Assembly: GCA_002951815.1 (NCBI GenBank)
Contig: CP019454.1
Location: 2,852,001 to 2,916,000, forward strand
From: Sulfobacillus thermotolerans
Lineage (GTDB): Bacteria > Bacillota > Sulfobacillia > Sulfobacillales > Sulfobacillaceae
DNA length: 64,000 bases
Direction: 5' to 3'
The position numbers and the translations under genes were made by a program. The notes under the pieces were generated by a model. It was not told where the DNA came from. It saw only the letters and a list, made by a program, of their open reading frames with translations, and ran no database searches. The stretch's first letter is position 1; each line of letters opens with the position of its first letter. Below are positions 1,942 to 17,057 of the stretch, piece by piece.

Positions 1942-3810
1942 ATGTCCATGTCAGAAGAAAAATTCCAACAAATTATCCACGAGCACCTACTAAAAATGAA
2001 CGGCTCCCTCGAAGATCGACGCCAACTTTTAATGGACAACGGCCAAGCATTATTAAACCAAGTTTGGAATGTTTTTCGGGACACCGGGAAACCAGAAGTA
2101 TTCTATGATACGAGTGTGATTCAAGCTTTGGCGCAAATCAAAGTCTCTGTCGATTCTGAAACTGCTTTCTATAAACATTTCGCACCGATTTTGCGGGAGT
2201 TGCAACAACGCAAAATGCCCATCAAACCCCTCAAGCAGGATATCCAAAATGCTGCCAAGCACCTTTGGAGCCTTACCAAAGAATCCTCCGACGTAGACAG
2301 TCTAACAAAAAACCCCCCGCTGGCATTGTGGAATGATGACGACGAGCAATTTGTGACCGCCACGATTCGTGCCAATTTTGTGCGTGACGAACAAATCTCC
2401 GAAGACGCGCAAAAAACCAAAACGGTTATCGAATTTACCAAAATTGCGCAATTTCTCATAGATCGGTATCATCTTATCTCTGCAAACGGCGAGATCTATG
2501 GACTTGTCAATCTACAAAATCTTTTTGGCAAAATCCTCGGATATGCCGATGAGGATACGGGCCGTCTCGGACGATTACTGATTCGTGTCTTTTCGACCCT
2601 CGACTTTCCTGACTCTGAAACCATCGCCAAAAAAATTCTCAAGCATATTCGAATGTTATTGCCTATTCCCAGTCGAAATGAAATTCCTGACATTAATACC
2701 TATCCCGATGTTCCGTGGGGCAACATTTCTTTTGACATCGACCACCACCAAACAACCACATTACGCGCACGTCACAAGGATGTCACTGCGCATGACCGAA
2801 CACTCGTTGATGCGATGTTTCATCGCTTTCCATTGTCCGATGATGCCATTTTCGCTATTAAAGTGTTCGTGGGGTATGCGCTATTCCCCACCCACCATCA
2901 ATGGCAACGGGCACTGATTCTCGCCGCACCGCAGGGCAGCAACGGAAAAAGTACGCTTCTTTCCATCATATCGCAAATTTTTCATCCCGAAGATGTCACC
3001 CACGTCACCTTTCAAGCCTTTGCTAAGAATCCACTCTACGCCGCCGCCGCCCTATCAACAGGCACAGTGAATATTGTGACAGATATGGCTGGTAGTTTTA
3101 TCAATGAAGATGCAATAGGATATGTCCGGCAGGCGATCTCCGGGGAAGCGATGGACGCTCGTGAAATTTATGGTCGGCCATTCTCCTTTGTTCCAAGGTC
3201 AAAATGGCTTATGGCCACCAATCGGCTACCCGGCACAACGGACTCCTCCAACGCTTTAAACCGTCGGCTCTATGTGGTGGCTATGCATTCTCAGACATTT
3301 GCCGAAGGCAAAAATCTTCTCGCAGAATATTCCACGCAAGAATTTATTGACGCCTTAGCGAATGTCTGTGTGGAAACCTATCTCAACTGGATCGCCCACC
3401 ACGAAACGCTCCCAGAAATCACATCCTCCAAGGAATTTCAAGAGGAACAACGCATCGCAAACGATGCCATTTATGCCCTGTTCGATGTAGACGGAATTTT
3501 TATCCGCGATGAACACGCTCAAATCAACGCAAAAGATGCCTATAAAAAATATAAAGAATATATCCTAGCTAACGAAGATTTGCTCCGATACGGCAATGTA
3601 AAAATCATTGGAGAAAAATCCTTTTCACGCCGCATCGAAGAATTGGGATTTCTTAAAAAGCGGGCATCCACGGGTTCACGACCTTACTATTTTGAAGGGT
3701 TCCGATTGCGAAAAGCCGAGGAATTTGACCGAGCTATCGTATATGAAGAAGAAGACGAACCCAACCCGCTAGACGTAATATCCGAAGATGATGATCTTGA
3801 TCTGTGCTAA
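1942..3810 (+). CDS. Replication protein with P4/D5-type SF3 helicase domain
   Basis: This 622-residue protein has AAAGGAG 8 bases before its ATG. The C-terminal half is a phage/plasmid primase-helicase of the D5/P4 alpha family. Walker A is GSNGKST at 332-338, an acidic Walker B-like segment lies near NIVTDMAGS (377-385), sensor 1 is in KWLMATNRLP (421-430), and an RR arginine-finger pair is at 441-442. A long N-terminal region (1-250) precedes it; I see no zinc finger or prim-pol DxD signature, so primase activity is uncertain. The C-terminus is very acidic. Proteins of this family bind origin iterons and unwind the origin of P4-like satellites and integrative plasmids. An iteron-rich region starts immediately downstream, and a terminator follows the stop codon. 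Confidence 0.8.
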   Translation: MSMSEEKFQQIIHEHLLKMNGSLEDRRQLLMDNGQALLNQVWNVFRDTGKPEVFYDTSVIQALAQIKVSVDSETAFYKHFAPILRELQQRKMPIKPLKQDIQNAAKHLWSLTKESSDVDSLTKNPPLALWNDDDEQFVTATIRANFVRDEQISEDAQKTKTVIEFTKIAQFLIDRYHLISANGEIYGLVNLQNLFGKILGYADEDTGRLGRLLIRVFSTLDFPDSETIAKKILKHIRMLLPIPSRNEIPDINTYPDVPWGNISFDIDHHQTTTLRARHKDVTAHDRTLVDAMFHRFPLSDDAIFAIKVFVGYALFPTHHQWQRALILAAPQGSNGKSTLLSIISQIFHPEDVTHVTFQAFAKNPLYAAAALSTGTVNIVTDMAGSFINEDAIGYVRQAISGEAMDAREIYGRPFSFVPRSKWLMATNRLPGTTDSSNALNRRLYVVAMHSQTFAEGKNLLAEYSTQEFIDALANVCVETYLNWIAHHETLPEITSSKEFQEEQRIANDAIYALFDVDGIFIRDEHAQINAKDAYKKYKEYILANEDLLRYGNVKIIGEKSFSRRIEELGFLKKRASTGSRPYYFEGFRLRKAEEFDRAIVYEEEDEPNPLDVISEDDDLDLC

Positions 3811-3860
3811 AAAGTGTTAAAAATCAACATCCTTAATCAATCGAATAAATCCTCATCGTG

Positions 3861-3889
3861 TCAGGTCTTCCGACCTGATTTTTTATTTT
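3861..3889 (+). terminator. Rho-independent terminator after rep
   Basis: The stem is TCAGGTC/GACCTGA with a short loop (TTCC), followed by TTTTTTATTTTT. It lies 50 bp after the rep stop codon. Its right arm and T-run are repeated at 4336-4365. Confidence 0.8.
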
Positions 3890-3901
3890 TATTGATGTTC
3901 G

Positions 3902-4253
3902 CCGTCCAATCCGTCCGATTTCCCCAATCCAAATCGGACGGCGGAAAGCGTTGGGCCATCAGCGTTTCCAGCATTCCGTCCGATTCCGTCCGATTTTTTT
4001 CCTAATGTTGCTCCCCCCAAATCACATTTTTTCTCTCCGCAAATACGAAAAAATGTGTATTGAACGGATAAGTTTTTATATAAAGGGATTAAAAATCGGA
4101 CGGAATCGCGAAAACACAAGCTCCGTGCGGTTTTCCGCCGTCCGATTTGAATATACACCAAAAACTTAAATCGGACGGAATCGCGGAAACGCAGACCCTC
4201 TGCGGTTTTTAGCCGTCCGATTTTTTCTGGAATCCGTCCGATTAATCGGACGG
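3902..4253. other. oriV: Putative replication origin with iterons CCGTCCGATT
   Basis: Ten perfect copies of CCGTCCGATT occur in about 345 bp in both orientations. Forward copies begin at 3911, 3976, 3986, 4138, 4213 and 4234; inverse copies (AATCGGACGG) begin at 3932, 4094, 4169 and 4244. A near-match begins at 3902. Two copies are in direct tandem (3976-3995) and two are back to back (4234-4253). An AT-rich stretch at 3990-4095 separates the groups and could be the unwinding element. Dense iterons just downstream of a P4/D5-type helicase gene fit a theta-type origin bound by that protein. No ORF occupies the region. Confidence 0.75.
4093..4225. repeat. Two related long hairpins within the origin
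   Basis: Units 4093-4148 and 4168-4225 each begin with AAATCGGACGGAATCGCG and end with CCGTCCGATTT. Each therefore folds into a stem with 11-bp outer arms plus inner pairing between GCGAAAAC-type and GGTTTTCCGC-type segments. The two units share most of their sequence and are direct duplicates of each other. They may be cruciform or single-strand signals within the origin. Confidence 0.65.
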
Positions 4254-4335
4254 CGACATCCTTCAACAAAATGTCCCATTTTAATGAGATGCGTCATTAC
4301 ATTTTTTCTTGACAATGTTAATGGTCGTGCGACTC

Positions 4336-4365
4336 TCCGACCTGATTTTTTATTTTTATTGATGT
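4336..4365. repeat. 30-bp direct repeat of the rep terminator arm
   Basis: The stretch is identical to 3869-3898 (right half of the terminator stem, T-run and TATTTTTATTGATGT). In this copy the left stem arm is missing, so it no longer terminates. The two copies flank the whole iteron region, which suggests that the origin segment arose or moved by recombination between short repeats. Confidence 0.8.
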
Positions 4366-4633
4366 ATGGATTTTAGACTGTTTCGTCAATCGTCCCATTT
4401 CGCTCCAGACGCTCTCTATTGAAAAAATATTACGAAGACGTAGGATGATAGCAATTTGACTCCCAAATCGCTCCAGAACGCTTGAAAACGTCTTGGGAGC
4501 GATGTGCGTTGGTAGATTATACCAACGCATCATTAAAAATAATTCACGCCGCTTTGCTCACTGGCCTTGCCATTCTCTCAAAACCGTCATAAAATCCCCC
4601 CAAAATTTACCATAGGCAAAGGAATGAGAAGAG
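4366..4633. other. Non-coding region with hairpin at 4505-4529
   Basis: No gene is evident. CGCTCCAGA occurs twice (near 4401 and 4470), and an inverse copy of ATCGCTCC/GGGAGCGAT brackets 4465-4502. A perfect 10-bp stem, TGCGTTGGTA/TACCAACGCA, with a 5-nt loop lies at 4505-4529 and has no T-run after it. It may be part of the origin or transfer locus, or a leader of the next gene. Confidence 0.45.
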
Positions 4634-5014: not shown

Positions 5015-5356
5015 ATGACAGAAATTATTTTAGGAAGCTATACATCTTTAGAAAGTGGAACGTGGTTCATCTTACAGAATCGTGTGCCGAAAAGTGAATT
5101 TAAAAAACTTATTTCTTTGGGGTTGGAATATCATAGATCGAACGAAGCCGATGAGGATGACACGGAAGCTTGGTTTTCGGGATGGACGTTTGGACCCTAT
5201 GGCAATAGAGAAAAACTCACCGAATTATTAGAGCAAAATGGATTTGCAGTAAAATTTGTGGGAGAAGTATGTCACGACGACGAACAATGGGATCGATCCC
5301 AAGAACCCTACGATGCGTTTGATTTAGAACCCTACAATCCATTTGATTCATATTAA
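5015..5356 (+). CDS. Acidic 113-aa protein of unknown function
   Basis: It starts at an ATG with CAGGAGAAAATAAT upstream. Acidic residues dominate, especially at residues 46-54 (EADEDDTEAW) and in the C-terminal third (CHDDEQWDRSQEPYDAFD), giving a low predicted pI. I do not recognise a domain. Strong negative charge in a small protein of a mobile element is compatible with a DNA mimic such as an antirestriction protein, but this is only a suggestion from composition. A terminator follows at 5380. Confidence 0.6.
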   Translation: MTEIILGSYTSLESGTWFILQNRVPKSEFKKLISLGLEYHRSNEADEDDTEAWFSGWTFGPYGNREKLTELLEQNGFAVKFVGEVCHDDEQWDRSQEPYDAFDLEPYNPFDSY

Positions 5357-5521: not shown

Positions 5522-8452
5522 ATGAATTACCACCGATCACAATTTTTTATGAAAGTTTTTCATCATTTTGGCCGCCGCTTCATTGTATTTTTCATTGTGA
5601 CAGCATTGTTTCAGATCATCGAACAAATTTTCTTTTTTTCGACCGACGGGATATTTTCTATGATTTCAATAGGATTGTTGTTCTTCTGGAACTTCTTACC
5701 GCCTCTGTCCTCGTTGTCCAATCTTCAACACAACCTGTGGCAACGTTTCCAAGCGCAGATGGACACGGTACGCAACGTCCATCAACCGCCGATCATTCTC
5801 ACAAACGACGATTGGCGACAAATCGTGAACAGTTTTCAATATAAAATGTCTGACAAGTACGCAGAAAATCATTTTTTTCGCAATTGGATCATCGCCTTGT
5901 TTGTCACGATCATCGGGACAGGTCTATTCGTGCATTCTGTGCTAGGCGACGTGCTGGTGGGCCTAGCATTTCTTTTTCTCACATATTTTTCACTTAACAA
6001 AACAAACCGAGCACGCACGGCATTGCAAGAAGCCTTTCCCGATCTGGATTGGGTTCAAGTCCATCACAATGAGAATGACCAGGCGCTTATTAATATTGCG
6101 ATTCAAGTGTTGATCAGCGAACAAACATTCGATCAACTTTTTCCGTGGACGACTCCCCAATATTTTCCGAAAGAGATTATGATCAAGGCTATCACTATGA
6201 TGATGCACTCTCAGTGGCATCGGATCATTTTTTCACAGACCCTTGCGTTAATGCACGATGTTCAGCGGATCTTCGATGAATCAGAAAAAAACATCATCAC
6301 GATTCGACGCACCGAGACACGGAAAAATTCCCAAGGAGAGGATGAAAAATATGAAGTGGAAGAACGGCAAAGGCTCATCACACTCAAAATGACCAACACA
6401 GGGTTTACCTATGAACTAAACCCGAAGGCTGAACCGGGCACAGTAGATCGCTTAATCAGGCAAATTCGCTCCGAACGCATCCAAGCCATTCTGTCACATT
6501 ACAATGAACAAAACAGCATCGTCAAATGGCATTTCGACCTAGGCTATGTCACAGTAGACACCGAGTTTCAACGGGAAGCGGTCTATGCCGATCTCGTGGG
6601 CCAAACTGAACCAGCCCCCACAGAGGAAGAACCCATCTTCGTTCCAGAAAATGACACACCAACGACACCCGTTTTTGACCCGCATCTCACGCTGTATCCT
6701 GGCGGACCCTCGCTGGCTCTACTTGCTCCACCAAAATCGGAAAAAAATGCAACGAATGAAGGCTTCACGATGAAAAAAGCCTTGGATGCCGCTTTGCGTG
6801 ACCAAGGATTGAGTGCTGTCGAGAGCCAGATCGTCGGTATTGGTGCGACAGTCGGTGTGTTCGATCTCATTCCCCCACCAAACTTCGACCCGACTGTCCT
6901 TGTGAAAAAGAGTGAAGCGATTCGCCTTGCTTCTCGTGGAAAGCTGGCAGGGCTTCGGATTTACGCTGGTGACGAAGGGCTTCGAGCCGAGATCCTTCGT
7001 CCGCATCGTGCGGCCGTTTCCTTCGCATCGATCCTTTTCGAAATTTCAAGAATGAAAAAGATGGCCTTGCCGATGTGCTTGGGCACGGATGCGGTCGGAA
7101 ACCCTGTGATCGTGGATCTGGCCGAAGCTCCGCATTTGCTAATCGCCGGAACGACTGGTTCTGGAAAATCCATAGCCGCCCACGCGATGCTCTTGTCCCT
7201 ACTTTTTTCATTGCCCACGGACGAAATCCAGCTTATCCTTATCGATCCGAAAAAAGTGGAACTGAGCATCTACAAAACCTTATCTAACGTCTCTTTTCTC
7301 TCCAATTCTCAAGACGTGGACGCTAAGTTGTCGGAAATCGTGGACGAAATGGAGAAACGAAACGAGGCATTTGAAACCGTGGGCGCACGAAACATTTCGT
7401 CCTACATCGCAAAAACTCATCAAAAATTGCAAAGGATTGTGATCTATATAGACGAGGCCAATGATTTGTTTCTTGGCGCAGAATCCGCCGTGCCTGACAA
7501 AAAAGAAGGCAAGGAACTGCGACAGAATATAGAAAATAGTCTGACCCGCTTAGCGCAAAAGGCAAGGTCCGCTGGCATCCATTTGATTGTTGCCACGCAA
7601 AAACCCTCTGTGGAATCCGTGCCATCGCTTCTTCGTGGGAATCTTCCATCTCGATTAGCGATGACAGTTGGTACGACTGCCGAAAGCCTTGTGGCGTTGG
7701 ACGAACCCGGGGCCGAAACCCTTGCCGGGAAAGGTGATGCACTGCTCAAGCTCATCGGAACTAAACCTCGACGAGTGCAGATCGCATTTATCACAGAGGA
7801 TGAAGTCGAAAACGTGGTAAACTGGTTCACGACGCATCAAGCTCTCCAAGCTCTCCAAGCTCCTCATTCCGAGGACAAAGAGGAAAAGAAGACCACGCCA
7901 GCCCCTTTTCAATCAAAGCTGGACGCTGTGGAAAATGAAATGGCACAAACGCAATACTCGTCAAATTTCGATCTGCGCAAAGCCGAACTCACTCAAAAAA
8001 TGCCCGATCCCAGTACTCGAAAGGTTTTTTCCATCTACGTGCGAAATGCCTTTTTTGATGCCCAGTATCACGAGATAAAAGCGATGTGCGAAAAACACCA
8101 CAATGATATAGACGCCGAGTCACCTGCTATTCAGGCGTGCCGCATTTTCGCTGCTTTGAAACTTTTAAAGGCCACCGAATCTGTCCCAGCAGACACAGAA
8201 AAAAATGTGTCCCAAGACGACGATAATCAGGAAATTTTTCGAAAAAATGTCGAATATTATCTTGAGTCGCTTCGAGAATTCGAAACGTATGCGAATATCG
8301 ACAAATATGAGCTAAAAAATCTCGCTTATTCGCTGGCCGAAGGAAAGGAAATCGATCTTGTGTATATCAGAAACTATGTGACGACAGATCGTGAACTTTC
8401 CGAAAAAATTTACGAAAAAATCAAGGAGATAAATAACCATGCAAACGACTAA
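5522..8452 (+). CDS. FtsK/SpoIIIE-type membrane DNA translocase (Tra candidate)
   Basis: This 976-residue protein has CAGGAGG 7 bases before its ATG. Four hydrophobic segments lie near residues 18-39, 42-60, 120-141 and 142-158, giving an N-terminal membrane anchor. The motor domain has Walker A GTTGSGKS at 543-550, Walker B RIVIYIDEAN with D644 and E645, and the FtsK-like GIHLIVATQKPS segment near 680-692. The C-terminal 220 residues are helical and charged, and I see no FtsK gamma-type winged helix in them. In AICEs one FtsK-like protein pumps double-stranded DNA between cells. It overlaps the next gene by 14 bases, so the two are probably co-translated. Chromosomal FtsK is an unlikely identity because of the element context and the unusual C-terminus. 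Confidence 0.85.
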   Translation: MNYHRSQFFMKVFHHFGRRFIVFFIVTALFQIIEQIFFFSTDGIFSMISIGLLFFWNFLPPLSSLSNLQHNLWQRFQAQMDTVRNVHQPPIILTNDDWRQIVNSFQYKMSDKYAENHFFRNWIIALFVTIIGTGLFVHSVLGDVLVGLAFLFLTYFSLNKTNRARTALQEAFPDLDWVQVHHNENDQALINIAIQVLISEQTFDQLFPWTTPQYFPKEIMIKAITMMMHSQWHRIIFSQTLALMHDVQRIFDESEKNIITIRRTETRKNSQGEDEKYEVEERQRLITLKMTNTGFTYELNPKAEPGTVDRLIRQIRSERIQAILSHYNEQNSIVKWHFDLGYVTVDTEFQREAVYADLVGQTEPAPTEEEPIFVPENDTPTTPVFDPHLTLYPGGPSLALLAPPKSEKNATNEGFTMKKALDAALRDQGLSAVESQIVGIGATVGVFDLIPPPNFDPTVLVKKSEAIRLASRGKLAGLRIYAGDEGLRAEILRPHRAAVSFASILFEISRMKKMALPMCLGTDAVGNPVIVDLAEAPHLLIAGTTGSGKSIAAHAMLLSLLFSLPTDEIQLILIDPKKVELSIYKTLSNVSFLSNSQDVDAKLSEIVDEMEKRNEAFETVGARNISSYIAKTHQKLQRIVIYIDEANDLFLGAESAVPDKKEGKELRQNIENSLTRLAQKARSAGIHLIVATQKPSVESVPSLLRGNLPSRLAMTVGTTAESLVALDEPGAETLAGKGDALLKLIGTKPRRVQIAFITEDEVENVVNWFTTHQALQALQAPHSEDKEEKKTTPAPFQSKLDAVENEMAQTQYSSNFDLRKAELTQKMPDPSTRKVFSIYVRNAFFDAQYHEIKAMCEKHHNDIDAESPAIQACRIFAALKLLKATESVPADTEKNVSQDDDNQEIFRKNVEYYLESLREFETYANIDKYELKNLAYSLAEGKEIDLVYIRNYVTTDRELSEKIYEKIKEINNHAND

Positions 8453-9035
8453 TGTACCCGAAAACACAACAACCCTGCTCAAGAAAAAATACCGTGCGTT
8501 GACCCCCGACGAGCTAGCCCGGCGTCGGCACATTGTGCTCGACGACATCCGAAACGCTCCCCTGTCGAGCTTTGACTTTTGGGATTTATTAAAACTTAAT
8601 GTACCCAAGGGCCTCATTTTAAAAAATGTGCGGTCGATCTCGATCAAAGAACCGCGGGACGACGGTAAAATCATCCGAAAGAACTATTGGAAGAAGGACG
8701 ATGTGTTGGCGTTTCTTGAAAATCGGGATGACTGGTATCCCCAAAACCTGATTAGTTCGACGGCGCAACAAGCACATCAACGAGCGAAACGCAAACAAGA
8801 TCAGCTGCCGATGGACATCGTTCCGCTCTCCCCAGGTCGTCTGCCGCTCGATGTGCGGGCACGCAAAGTCTATCGGGCATTGCGGGATGTGTTTCCCGAA
8901 GGCCATCCCATTACGACACGTATGATTGCCGTCGTGGGCAATGTCTCTCTTTCATATGCCCATCGTGTCGTGGAGTCGATGGTCAAACAACATCGGCTCG
9001 AAAAAGATCCCCAGGGTGTCTGGCGTCTACGATAA
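8439..9035 (+). CDS. DNA-binding protein with C-terminal winged helix, partner of the translocase
   Basis: This 198-residue protein overlaps the translocase gene by 14 bases; its AAGGAG lies 9 bases before the ATG. Residues 45-96 resemble an Xis/MerR-type helix-turn-helix ending in KKDDVLAFLENR. Residues 139-198 form a winged-helix pattern (RKVYRALRDVF, TTRMIAVVG, SLSYAHRVVESMVKQHRLEK, then a short wing). FtsK and streptomycete TraB carry such a winged helix fused to the motor to read directional DNA repeats. Here it may be a separate subunit that recognises the transfer locus. An alternative is a transcriptional or replication regulator. Confidence 0.6.
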   Translation: MQTTNVPENTTTLLKKKYRALTPDELARRRHIVLDDIRNAPLSSFDFWDLLKLNVPKGLILKNVRSISIKEPRDDGKIIRKNYWKKDDVLAFLENRDDWYPQNLISSTAQQAHQRAKRKQDQLPMDIVPLSPGRLPLDVRARKVYRALRDVFPEGHPITTRMIAVVGNVSLSYAHRVVESMVKQHRLEKDPQGVWRLR

Positions 9036-9121: not shown

Positions 9122-10591
9122 TTAATCTGAGAAGGTCTCACTGATGGGGAGATTCGGCAACTGCGAGACGACGTGGATTGCCGACCACGTCCCCCCAAAA
9201 GCCACGAACTCTGCGGGATTCGGCACGTGATACAAGGTATTCCCTGGTGTCACAATGTATACAGGACTCGTACCGGCTACTCGATAAAAAGAACCGGGCG
9301 GATATTGTTGTGTGGTACTCATCGGCAAATTCGGTAATTCTGACACCACTTGGATAGCCGACCAATTCAAATGCAAGTCGTTAAACGCTAAGGCACTGGG
9401 GACGTGATACAACGTCTGACTACTTGTTACAATGTACACAGCCGGGTTATTCGGCGTTTTCCAGAGACTGCCAACCGCATATTGCGGAGGATTAATCGTT
9501 GGAATTGCTGGATCAGAGTTCGTTATGGGTAAATTTGGCAACTGCGACACAAAATGAATACTCGACCAACTTAACCCGGCGTGATTAAACGTAGCCCCGT
9601 TGGGAATGTGATATAATTCTTCGTTGCTCGTGACAATATACACTGCGGGATTATTATTCAAGCGCCATAAACTTCCCACAGGATATTGCGGTTGTGACGG
9701 GGTAGGATTGGGCGTTGGTGTGGGTGTGGGGTTGGATTGATTGGCCAACGGATTCCATCCACTTGCACTATTGGCTCCCGCCGCTAACGCTTGTTGCCAC
9801 GTATAAATATACGACGGTGGTGGTCCTCCAACAACTTGAGAAAAACTAAAGTTCAATGTCTTTGGATAAGGGGCGCCTTCAAAAGTATCATTGCCGTATC
9901 CAGCCCCGGCTACTAAAGGAGATTGACTGGTAACATCAAAAGGAGCATTATTTAATAACATAGCCCGTGCGTGCCAGTGACTATATCCCGTATTAACCGT
10001 ACTCGCTAAAATACCATAATTCGGGTCGATGGTGGCGTTGTTGTACATAATTTCATAAATAGCCATCAGTGGGGTTAAAACTTGCGTAGAGTTTAAGCCC
10101 GTGTTGCTAGAGTTTACAAAGAAGGATGCAACAGAAAACAAACCATCCCCAGCATCTAGTTCTGTGCCACCATTTAAACTACCAATATAATTCAATGGAG
10201 GTTCTCCGTTGGGAATCGAGAGTTGGGCGTTTTGATCCATTTGGGCATTCAGCCCGCTAATCGGTGTGATTCCGCGATCCACCCGGGCAATATCCACCAA
10301 GACAAACAACTGTTCTTGCTGTGTTAATTGATTCCAGTTGGTTGGCAACATAATGGGGCCTAACCCCACCTGTTGACGGGCATTATCTAACGCTTGCACC
10401 GTCGCCACGGTACACGCATTGGAATTACCCCCATCGGCCAAACAGACACTCGAAAAGTTTGGGTTAGCGGGAATGTTGTTTTGTGTTAAATACGGGGGTG
10501 TGCTGGCGGCAAAGCTCATTCCACTGGCAGCCAAAGCTAAAGCGCCACTGATGAAAATTCCTGGTATCATCCATTTCATTCCACGTATCAT
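9122..10591 (-). CDS. Secreted CAP-like protein with three C-terminal surface repeats
   Basis: The chosen start, ATG at 10591 (489 aa), has GGAG 10 bases upstream and puts a signal peptide at the N-terminus (hydrophobic core near residues 10-28). An upstream in-frame extension to 10792 is less likely. Residues 30-280 resemble secreted CAP-like/SCP-like proteins of actinobacteria (LTQQEQLFVLVDIARVDRG with conserved His and Asn further on). A Pro-Thr linker (about 283-299) leads to three repeats of about 57 residues (300-357, 368-424, 427-484). Each has the pattern Y-x-x-GS-h-(11)-PAVYIVT-x-LYH-hP-(8-10)-W-x-x-I-x-x-VSQLPNLPI. It is a single cargo gene on the opposite strand. A wall-binding, adhesion or lytic role during transfer is possible but unproven. 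Confidence 0.6.
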   Translation of the reverse strand: MIRGMKWMIPGIFISGALALAASGMSFAASTPPYLTQNNIPANPNFSSVCLADGGNSNACTVATVQALDNARQQVGLGPIMLPTNWNQLTQQEQLFVLVDIARVDRGITPISGLNAQMDQNAQLSIPNGEPPLNYIGSLNGGTELDAGDGLFSVASFFVNSSNTGLNSTQVLTPLMAIYEIMYNNATIDPNYGILASTVNTGYSHWHARAMLLNNAPFDVTSQSPLVAGAGYGNDTFEGAPYPKTLNFSFSQVVGGPPPSYIYTWQQALAAGANSASGWNPLANQSNPTPTPTPNPTPSQPQYPVGSLWRLNNNPAVYIVTSNEELYHIPNGATFNHAGLSWSSIHFVSQLPNLPITNSDPAIPTINPPQYAVGSLWKTPNNPAVYIVTSSQTLYHVPSALAFNDLHLNWSAIQVVSELPNLPMSTTQQYPPGSFYRVAGTSPVYIVTPGNTLYHVPNPAEFVAFGGTWSAIHVVSQLPNLPISETFSD

Positions 10592-10633
10592 GGCCTCATC
10601 ACTCCAATTCATTACGATTATTACTCTGCAATC

Positions 10634-10668
10634 AGCGTGATTGTAACACGCTTCCCCCGTGAAACCAA
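10634..10668 (-). promoter_or_regulatory. Putative promoter of the secreted-protein gene
   Basis: On the minus strand TTGGTT (plus 10663-10668) and TACAAT (plus 10640-10645) are 17 bp apart. An inverted repeat AGCGTG/CACGCT (10634-10652) is centred on the -10 and could be an operator. Confidence 0.4.
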
Positions 10669-10771
10669 AGAATAACAGGCGTTTTCGATTATGACCCGAA
10701 ACTTTTTGGATAAAAAAAACTCCCGCAGCGCTGTTCTTGTCCACATATACTTTCTTCTGTAATGCAACAAG

Positions 10772-10897
10772 CAAGCACAGGCGTTCCTTCAAAAAATTTT
10801 ATTAAATTTCGAGCACAGCCTCATTTAGAAAATCCCAAGCACAGCCCTGTACAGTAAAACGCAAGCACAGTAATTTTGATAATTTTTTCAAGCACAG
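10772..10897 (+). repeat. Array of five CAAGCACAG direct repeats, candidate transfer or replication locus
   Basis: Copies start at 10772, 10810 (CGAGCACAG, one mismatch), 10836, 10862 and 10889, giving spacings of 38, 26, 26 and 27 bp. All have the same orientation and the spacers are AT-rich and unrelated. The array sits in a 500-bp gap between divergent genes. Regular direct 9-mers are typical of iterons or of the clt repeats read by TraB-type translocases. The ORF that crosses it on the minus strand (10802-11344) conflicts with the better gene at 11093 and was rejected. Confidence 0.65.
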
Positions 10898-14715: not shown

Positions 14716-14970
14716 ATGAATCAAATAACTCCAATCAATCGCAATGACAAATCCACTTGGCCTGAGATCCTCTCTGTAAAAGACGTGTGCTATATTTTGT
14801 CCACTTCACGAAATACGGTCTACGACCTTATTGCCATAGGGCATCTCCATTCATTACCGAGTATGGGCAAAATTCATCGAATCACCAAAGATTCGTTGCT
14901 AGCCTTTTTACAGGCTAAAAATCCCTATAATCCTCCTGTACCGCTTAAAAAATTCACAGGAGGCCGATAA
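14716..14970 (+). CDS. xis: Excisionase-type (MerR-like) DNA-binding protein
   Basis: This 84-residue protein carries the excisionase-family helix-turn-helix: ILSVKDVCYILSTSRNTVYD followed by a wing and SLLAFLQAKN (about residues 16-70). Upstream is AAAGGA, 9 bases before the ATG. It ends two bases before the integrase start codon, so the two are transcribed together from the promoter at 14627. Xis proteins bend the att DNA and bias the integrase towards excision. Confidence 0.8.
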   Translation: MNQITPINRNDKSTWPEILSVKDVCYILSTSRNTVYDLIAIGHLHSLPSMGKIHRITKDSLLAFLQAKNPYNPPVPLKKFTGGR

Positions 14971-14972
14971 AA

Positions 14973-16154
14973 ATGGCAGATAAAAGAAAAGTCAGCGAAA
15001 CGCATCTGGGAACAGTCCGTGGCATGATTTATGCCACGGACACTCAAAAAAAATGGCTCGTGAAATGGACCTATCACGAAACAGGAAAGAAATGGCCTAT
15101 CCGTGAACAAAAAATCGTGTATGGGCTAAAAATCAACGCTGAACAGTTCCTCGAAAACATCATGAGAGAAATAGACAGTGGCAAGCACACGAAAAAAGCG
15201 CAAAAAATGACCGTGGAACAATGGCTAGAACAATGGCTCGATGCGAAAAAAAATGGGATTTACGGCAAAAGTATCAAAGACAAAACACTTGTGACGTATC
15301 AACAACGTATTCAATACATTTGTAAATTCCTCGGTCAACACACTGTGCAAGACCTCACAACACAAGACGTGCAAAAATTTGTCAATAATGCCATGCGTGA
15401 TAACACCATTTCGCTCCGCACAAAACAGTACACGTTTCGTGTGCTGAAAATGTCCTTGAACGACGCTGAAGCATGGGAAATCATCGGAAGAAACCCTGCC
15501 GCCAAATTAAAAATTGGCCAGAACGCCAGTCCCAAACGCATACCGCTCAACATCGAGCAGCTTCAGCAGGTCATGACACAACTGCAACACGAACAGTATG
15601 GACTCCCCCTTGAGTTCATCGCTGTGACAGGTGTGCGCGTGGGCGAATGTTTAGGACTGACTTGGGATTGTATTGACTTCGAGAAAGGCAATGTGGAAAT
15701 TAAGCAACAACTCACGGAAATTGGCAACAAAATCATTTTGGAACAAACCACAAAAACCGCTTCCAGCCAACGTTTCGTAGCCTTGCCCACAACATTTGTG
15801 GCAAAATTGAAGGCCCATCGTCGCACGCAACTGCAAATGCGGTTGAAAAATCCAAGCGATGCTTGGCAAAACGATTTTGTGTTTGCAACCCAAAATGGAA
15901 CGCCTATCAGCCCGAACAATCTTCGGCGCACATTCCGACGTGTTTTAAAAAAATGTGGATTGCCTCCGTATCATGTTCACGATCTACGACATACCTACGC
16001 CACTTTGCTGTACGATACCACGAAAAATATTAAGCTTGTTTCGGAAATGCTTGGTCATACCTCCACACAAATCACTATTGACACGTATACCCACACCACA
16101 GACCACGCAAAAGAAGAAATCGCCCATATCGTGGACGATCTCTTTTATCAGTGA
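14973..16154 (+). CDS. int: Tyrosine integrase
   Basis: This 393-residue protein has AGGAGG in the last codons of xis. It has an N-terminal arm-binding domain (about 10-75, Trp/Lys-rich), a SAM-like core-binding domain (about 80-180) and a catalytic domain with R222 (TGVRVGE), H336-x-x-R339 (HDLRHTYATLLYD), H362 (LGHTSTQ) and the nucleophile Y372 (TYTH). All catalytic residues are present. It lies 166 bp from the tRNA-Lys gene it uses as attachment site. The 46-bp duplicated tRNA end is the product of its reaction. Confidence 0.95.
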   Translation: MADKRKVSETHLGTVRGMIYATDTQKKWLVKWTYHETGKKWPIREQKIVYGLKINAEQFLENIMREIDSGKHTKKAQKMTVEQWLEQWLDAKKNGIYGKSIKDKTLVTYQQRIQYICKFLGQHTVQDLTTQDVQKFVNNAMRDNTISLRTKQYTFRVLKMSLNDAEAWEIIGRNPAAKLKIGQNASPKRIPLNIEQLQQVMTQLQHEQYGLPLEFIAVTGVRVGECLGLTWDCIDFEKGNVEIKQQLTEIGNKIILEQTTKTASSQRFVALPTTFVAKLKAHRRTQLQMRLKNPSDAWQNDFVFATQNGTPISPNNLRRTFRRVLKKCGLPPYHVHDLRHTYATLLYDTTKNIKLVSEMLGHTSTQITIDTYTHTTDHAKEEIAHIVDDLFYQ

Positions 16155-16320: not shown

Positions 16321-16396
<76 letters not shown>

Positions 16397-16621: not shown

Positions 16622-16755
16622 GGAGCTTTTCTCGACAACTGACCACTCTTCCAATGACGATACACTTAAACACCGCTGTATTGGTCACCATTTTTTACGC
16701 GGTGTGATACACTATGTCATATCAACTACCGGACAGTGCACAAGGAGGCGCAGCG

Positions 16756-16971
16756 ATGGCGCGTAAAACAAGACTGGGTGGTTACGACATTAGTATTGAA
16801 AAAAACCAAGAAGGTATTCATCTTGCTGTCAAACCCACTCCGGGCCATGCCCAAGCACAGGCTGAAGTCTTCCAAATGTTTGACCAGTTTCGCAATACAG
16901 CCCGACAAGCAGGAGTAGGGGGCGCAGAAATTTTCGCCTACTGGCTCAAGAAACAGTTGCGGATAAAGTAA
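16756..16971 (+). CDS. Hypothetical 71-aa protein
   Basis: The ATG at 16756 is chosen because CAAGGAGG lies 8 bases upstream. An ORF start at 16714 has no such site. The short basic protein begins MARKTRLGGYDISIEKNQEG and has an amphipathic C-terminal helix. No family is recognised. A strong terminator follows directly, so it is a single-gene transcript. Confidence 0.6.
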   Translation: MARKTRLGGYDISIEKNQEGIHLAVKPTPGHAQAQAEVFQMFDQFRNTARQAGVGGAEIFAYWLKKQLRIK

Positions 16972-16987
16972 CATTTTTTTCCATAAA

Positions 16988-17033
16988 TACCACGATCTTG
17001 AATATCTTAAAGATCGTGGTATAATTTTTTTAT
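16988..17033 (+). terminator. Strong terminator
   Basis: A perfect 12-bp stem TACCACGATCTT/AAGATCGTGGTA is followed by TAATTTTTTTATT. It separates the 71-aa gene from the Spo0E-like gene. Confidence 0.9.
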
Positions 17034-17057
17034 TCAAATCCACAAAGGGAGGGCATC

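Follow-up and report, generated by a model that had tools for sequence, protein, structure and literature searches.

The window, by which we mean the whole 64-kb stretch of chromosome that was analysed from the acidophilic bacterium Sulfobacillus thermotolerans, contains an integrated element of ∼15 kb bounded by perfect 46-bp att repeats lying 15,057 bp apart. The left repeat (1264–1309) duplicates the 3′ part of tRNA-Lys and the right repeat (16321–16366) lies inside the tRNA-Lys(CTT) gene itself (16321–16396), and the GC content of the element is 43.9%, compared with 52.8% outside it. Its plus strand encodes a small ribbon-helix-helix (CopG-like) protein that lies upstream of rep and is a candidate rep regulator (1620–1799, weak RHH_5 and DUF6364 matches), the replication helicase Rep (1942–3810), an FtsK/SpoIIIE-like DNA translocase that is probably a transfer protein (5522–8452; PF01580, E = 8.4e-39), an excisionase-like HTH_17 protein (14716–14970; PF12728, E = 9.4e-10) and, adjoining attR, a tyrosine integrase (14973–16154; PF00589, E = 8.8e-28). 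A serine resolvase is also encoded. Two further proteins are without a family match, namely a 198-aa protein (8439–9035) whose gene overlaps the end of the FtsK gene and whose C-terminal part looks winged-helix-like by eye, and a 556-aa protein on the minus strand (9122–10792) with an internal repeat of ∼60 residues (PVYIVT motifs).

Rep, 622 aa in length, is an SF3 helicase assigned to the P4/D5 family, the label that it had already been given in the first-pass annotation. It matches PF19263 above the cut-off of that family (E = 3.5e-11, 44.2 bits against 27.6) and TIGR01613 (phage/plasmid primase, P4 family) below the cut-off (E = 2.8e-23, 82.3 bits against 108.7), and a profile of eight Rep relatives finds PDB entry 7ola ("DNA primase"), which we take to be the SaPI5 primase-helicase, with an E-value of 2e-38. 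The SF3 motifs are kept, with a Walker A motif reading GSNGKST and N427 as the sensor, and G332, N334–K336, D381, N427 and R442 are invariant in the eight-relative alignment. The C-terminal winged helix is weakly recognised (best Pfam match Pox_D5, E = 0.15; hhalign probability of 38% to relatives), and a single-sequence structure model of Rep, which had a mean pLDDT of 35, was left unused. A fused or adjacent primase domain is common, not universal, in replication helicases of this family; scans of Rep as a whole, of its N-terminal 319 residues and of further element proteins recognised none. Searches by peptide pattern found no close Rep relatives in the genome contigs or viral contigs, and the alignment proved too diverged for pattern searching.

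Immediately 3′ of rep and its intrinsic terminator (3860–3892, plus strand; an 8-bp stem and then a T-rich tail) lies an iteron array whose sequence, position and symmetry can be read directly from the DNA. Pattern matching on both strands yields ten exact copies of CCGTCCGATT in 3911–4253, an interval of 343 bp, six of them on the plus strand and four on the minus strand, arranged as a left set (3911+, 3932–, 3976+, 3986+; 3911–3995) and a right set (4094–, 4138+, 4169–, 4213+, 4234+, 4244–; 4094–4253). Ten perfect copies in both orientations within ∼345 bp is what the first-pass annotation had described, and the tandem pair (3976/3986) and the back-to-back pair that it reported are likewise present, the latter (4234/4244) forming a perfect 20-bp palindrome. 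Its span of 3902–4253 holds at the end and needs correcting at the start, as 3902 is the first base of a degenerate plus-strand copy (CCGTCCAATC, 3902–3911) with two mismatches to CCGTCCGATT and the exact copies begin at 3911. The density is indeed far beyond chance: among 40 sequences of 64 kb generated by a first-order Markov model no 10-mer exceeded three copies per 360 bp, the window has no further exact copy, and only five others, all isolated and none clustered, exist in the entire 3,317,203-bp genome, a frequency that corresponds to 0.0005 copies expected per 345 bp. A 126-aa minus-strand ORF running across the array (3889–4269) was taken as spurious because it has a TTG start and no clear ribosome-binding site upstream.

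The two iteron sets flank an AT-rich core (3996–4093) that is, on the basis of duplex stability and GC content, a putative DNA unwinding element. The least stable 80 bp of the region 3701–4500 are found at 4017–4096, between both sets, and the GC content is 27% at 4040–4099, in agreement with the central AT-rich stretch noted before. A perfect 18-bp inverted repeat (arms 3981–3998 and 4091–4108) brackets the core. By inspection, the mirror pairs 3911+/4169– and 3986+/4094– share a common centre at 4044.5, with the centre of a third pair, 3932–/4138+, shifted to 4039.5, and through these pairings the left set, leaving out its tandem copy, is a mirror image of the inner right set. On the right the array is lengthened by the second copy of a 56-bp direct-repeat module (4093–4148 and 4168–4223; 84% identical, with a period of 75 bp). 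Steps from one iteron to its neighbour measure 10, 21, 31, 44 or 108 bp, of which 10, 21 and 31 bp come near to whole helical turns and 44 bp does not. No DnaA box was found at ≤1 mismatch in 3701–4500. A 22-nt inverted match (20/22) joins 1363–1384, near attL, with 3943–3964 in the left iteron set.

We gathered P4-family rep loci from related genomes and plasmids (19 loci including the Sulfobacillus thermotolerans element) and scored the 920 bp that follow every rep gene, or less at contig ends, by the 9-mer repeated most often within 350 bp, counting both strands and allowing one mismatch. A score of at least 8 was reached at nine of the 19 loci (S. thermotolerans element 12, L053 10, L049 8, L065 13, L072 9, L074 8, L075 9, L076 9 and L077 10), and phage P4, the positive control, scored 9 after the alpha gene, at crr. 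As L072 and L076 share both word and layout they are not independent, leaving about seven independent other loci. Control stretches of 920 bp reached 8 once in 159 in the same loci and never in 64 elsewhere in the window; the threshold was picked after the scores were known, and the contrast between arrays and controls is therefore descriptive, though large. The single control stretch is itself a second dense bidirectional array (ATTCCGGCAA / AATTCCGG) in L053, a locus of another species of the same genus, where it occupies 16740–17047, ∼6.5 kb from rep.

Recurrence of the layout is a direct observation, and the array words differ from locus to locus, which is what recognition of a separate iteron by each Rep would predict. 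At L053, L063 and L065 the iterons of the left set share one orientation and most of those in the right set have the other, with an AT-richer centre between them, and plasmid pAACI03 carries a two-set array 5′ of rep rather than 3′. The conservation of iterons in related elements, proposed as a check in the first-pass annotation, was examined in this way: arrays with different words stand behind eight of the 18 other rep genes, and ten loci, namely the closest Rep relative L048 and nine more that are more distant or have truncated flanks, are below threshold after rep. Elements with the same rep and no repeats, which it had named as evidence against an origin, were encountered only among distant relatives, even L048 being 31% identical over ∼260 residues. 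The origin DNA has no relatives in plasmids or, apart from the window's own genome, in 61 related genomes, and two iteron pairs searched in viral contigs gave no match.

The L048 locus, which has a Prim-Pol gene adjacent, carries no iteron array after rep. A long inverted repeat (5215–5259 and 5279–5323) begins 23 bp after the gene, in a region with a folding z-score of –5.1 over 220 bp, and the predicted large hairpin (L048:5215–5323) standing in place of iterons resembles the origin of pRN1, where a stem-loop 3′ of the ORF904 gene has been shown to be the origin (PMC4234260). Because of this resemblance, P4-family helicases may use either kind of origin, iterons or a hairpin, at this position, with one hairpin locus in our set. 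The pRN1 replicon is also comparable to the S. thermotolerans element in that its origin lies directly 3′ of the gene for an SF3 helicase, ORF904, which has a C-terminal winged helix such as is weakly recognised in Rep. It differs in its 100-bp stem-loop without iterons and in its fused prim-pol domain (PMC4234260).

Phage satellites, P4 and the PICIs among them, already provide examples of this layout. In PICIs the origin is located 3′ of rep, always has two iteron sets flanking an AT-rich region, is functional in a plasmid assay and, according to the authors of that work, has a layout found in no other known bacterial replicon (PMC6092414). Like PICIs of Gram-positive and Gram-negative hosts, the S. 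thermotolerans element is integrated and has rep followed directly by a probable ori with element-specific iterons, and two iteron sets around an AT-rich region are found directly 3′ of its rep. Unlike PICIs, it has an FtsK-like translocase, an unrelated iteron word and no recognised primase domain. No terminase, including its small subunit (terS), and no packaging or other phage-hijacking gene was recognised among the element proteins scanned, and because packaging genes such as terS were not recognised we do not class the element as a PICI. In SaPI Rep proteins it is the C-terminal domain that recognises the iterons downstream, and binding appears to involve two hexamers; Cch2, a relative of these proteins, binds and unwinds iteron DNA (PMC7581432). 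The putative SCCmec origin of Cch2 likewise has its repeats directly downstream of the gene for a helicase with a Primase_Cterm domain, but it comprises only three 5-nt iterons and is accompanied by a dedicated polymerase-type primase (PMC7581432).

We consider it very likely that 3902–4253 is the replication origin of the 15-kb integrative element and is bound by Rep. The first-pass annotation had proposed an origin beside the helicase gene, and the family of Rep, the position behind rep, which is that of P4 crr and of PICI origins, and the recurring arrays all support that reading. GC-skew mapping of the element, which it suggested, was uninformative, as the amplitude of the detrended minimum near 4.6 kb is within the size of a random walk. 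We infer a mechanism in which integrase and excisionase would release the element as a circle, Rep monomers would bind the decamers via their C-terminal domain, and two oppositely facing Rep hexamers would assemble, one per iteron set. After excision the hexamers would melt the AT-rich core and theta-type replication would start, probably bidirectionally. Priming would probably be provided by host enzymes, given that no primase was recognised in Rep or in the other element proteins scanned, and the resulting copies would serve re-integration, maintenance and FtsK-dependent transfer.

It is also conceivable, though improbable, that the array is a clt-like transfer locus read by the neighbouring FtsK-like translocase, in the manner in which TraB of Streptomyces plasmids recognises 8-bp TRS repeats (PMC4170104). 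The array has rep on one side and the FtsK gene on the other, the translocase is weakly TraB-like (NF041214, E = 1.7e-15) and TraB and clt provide a precedent. However, the FtsK gamma domain was not recognised in this protein, and tblastn detected no FtsK homologue, within the sequence available per locus, at the array loci L049, L053, L063, L065, L072 and L074–L077 or on pAACI03, while L048, L050, L051 and L052 carry an FtsK relative without a comparable array beside it. Across loci the arrays therefore go with Rep and not with FtsK, which argues against a transfer site of the TraB/clt type. Of these loci, L051 (G003:C1:2219000–2238000) is a sibling element in another species of the same genus, its integrase, excisionase and resolvase being 55%, 62% and 72% identical to those of the S. 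thermotolerans element. Its FtsK is 42% identical and contains several stop codons, no Rep or array was detected, and it is apparently a decayed copy. AICEs, the FtsK/TraB-type integrative elements of actinomycetes, are described as confined to Actinomycetales and as having mostly RepSA, RepAM or Prim-Pol modules (PMC3218068). The S. thermotolerans element shares with them a tyrosine integrase, a tRNA att site, a probable FtsK-like transfer protein and its own replication module, but we do not class it as an AICE because its host, Sulfobacillus, is not an actinomycete and its Rep is of the P4/D5 type.

Equally improbable in our view is that the array is an auxiliary cis element and that initiation takes place elsewhere in the element. 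Such an arrangement is known from phage P4 (X51522), in which crr, directly 3′ of the gene for alpha, a member of the same helicase superfamily as Rep, has its ten iterons spread over two 120-bp repeats, and a separate ori with six iterons is found ∼4.7 kb away. The array resembles crr in that both have ten short bidirectional iterons behind rep and a terminator, partly in two direct-repeat modules, and the 56-bp modules (4093–4223) are reminiscent of the 120-bp repeats. In contrast to P4, however, there is one iteron cluster with its own AT-rich core, no second decamer cluster exists in the element or the window, and the least stable DNA falls inside the array; alpha moreover carries a primase domain, whereas none is recognised in Rep. 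Least probable of all is that the array serves the CopG-like protein encoded at 1620–1799 as an operator array or as a centromere-like partition site. Ribbon-helix-helix proteins are able to bind short repeats, but none of the element proteins scanned was recognised as ParA-like, the array is 3′ of rep and away from the rep promoter, and P4-family rep genes of unrelated elements are accompanied by arrays at this position too.

Read as an origin, the array is of modest interest in two respects. Its Rep has no primase that was recognised, and the layout described for PICIs turns up beyond them, both in plasmids and in an FtsK-type element, which suggests that PICIs, plasmids and FtsK-type integrative elements have this origin layout in common. 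We propose, tentatively and with rather less than even confidence, that P4/D5-family helicases define a general replicon class whose origin lies just 3′ of rep and is exchangeable between mirror-image iteron sets around an AT-rich core (in the S. thermotolerans element, other elements, plasmids and phage-plasmids) and a large hairpin (in pRN1 and L048). The PICI layout would be its common form, working here in an FtsK-type integrative element whose Rep has no recognised primase. A simple rule for locating P4/D5-family origins would follow, which is to seek a short bidirectionally repeated word just behind rep. In addition, rep with ∼400 bp is a candidate minimal replicon for Sulfobacillus, a bioleaching genus that would benefit from replicating vectors.

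Finally, the iteron array is bracketed by a perfect 30-bp direct repeat, TCCGACCTGATTTTTTATTTTTATTGATGT, with copies at 3869–3898 and 4336–4365, 467 bp apart, the first of which belongs to the rep terminator. Such a flanking repeat could mean that the segment holding the probable origin was inserted, or duplicated, as a cassette.
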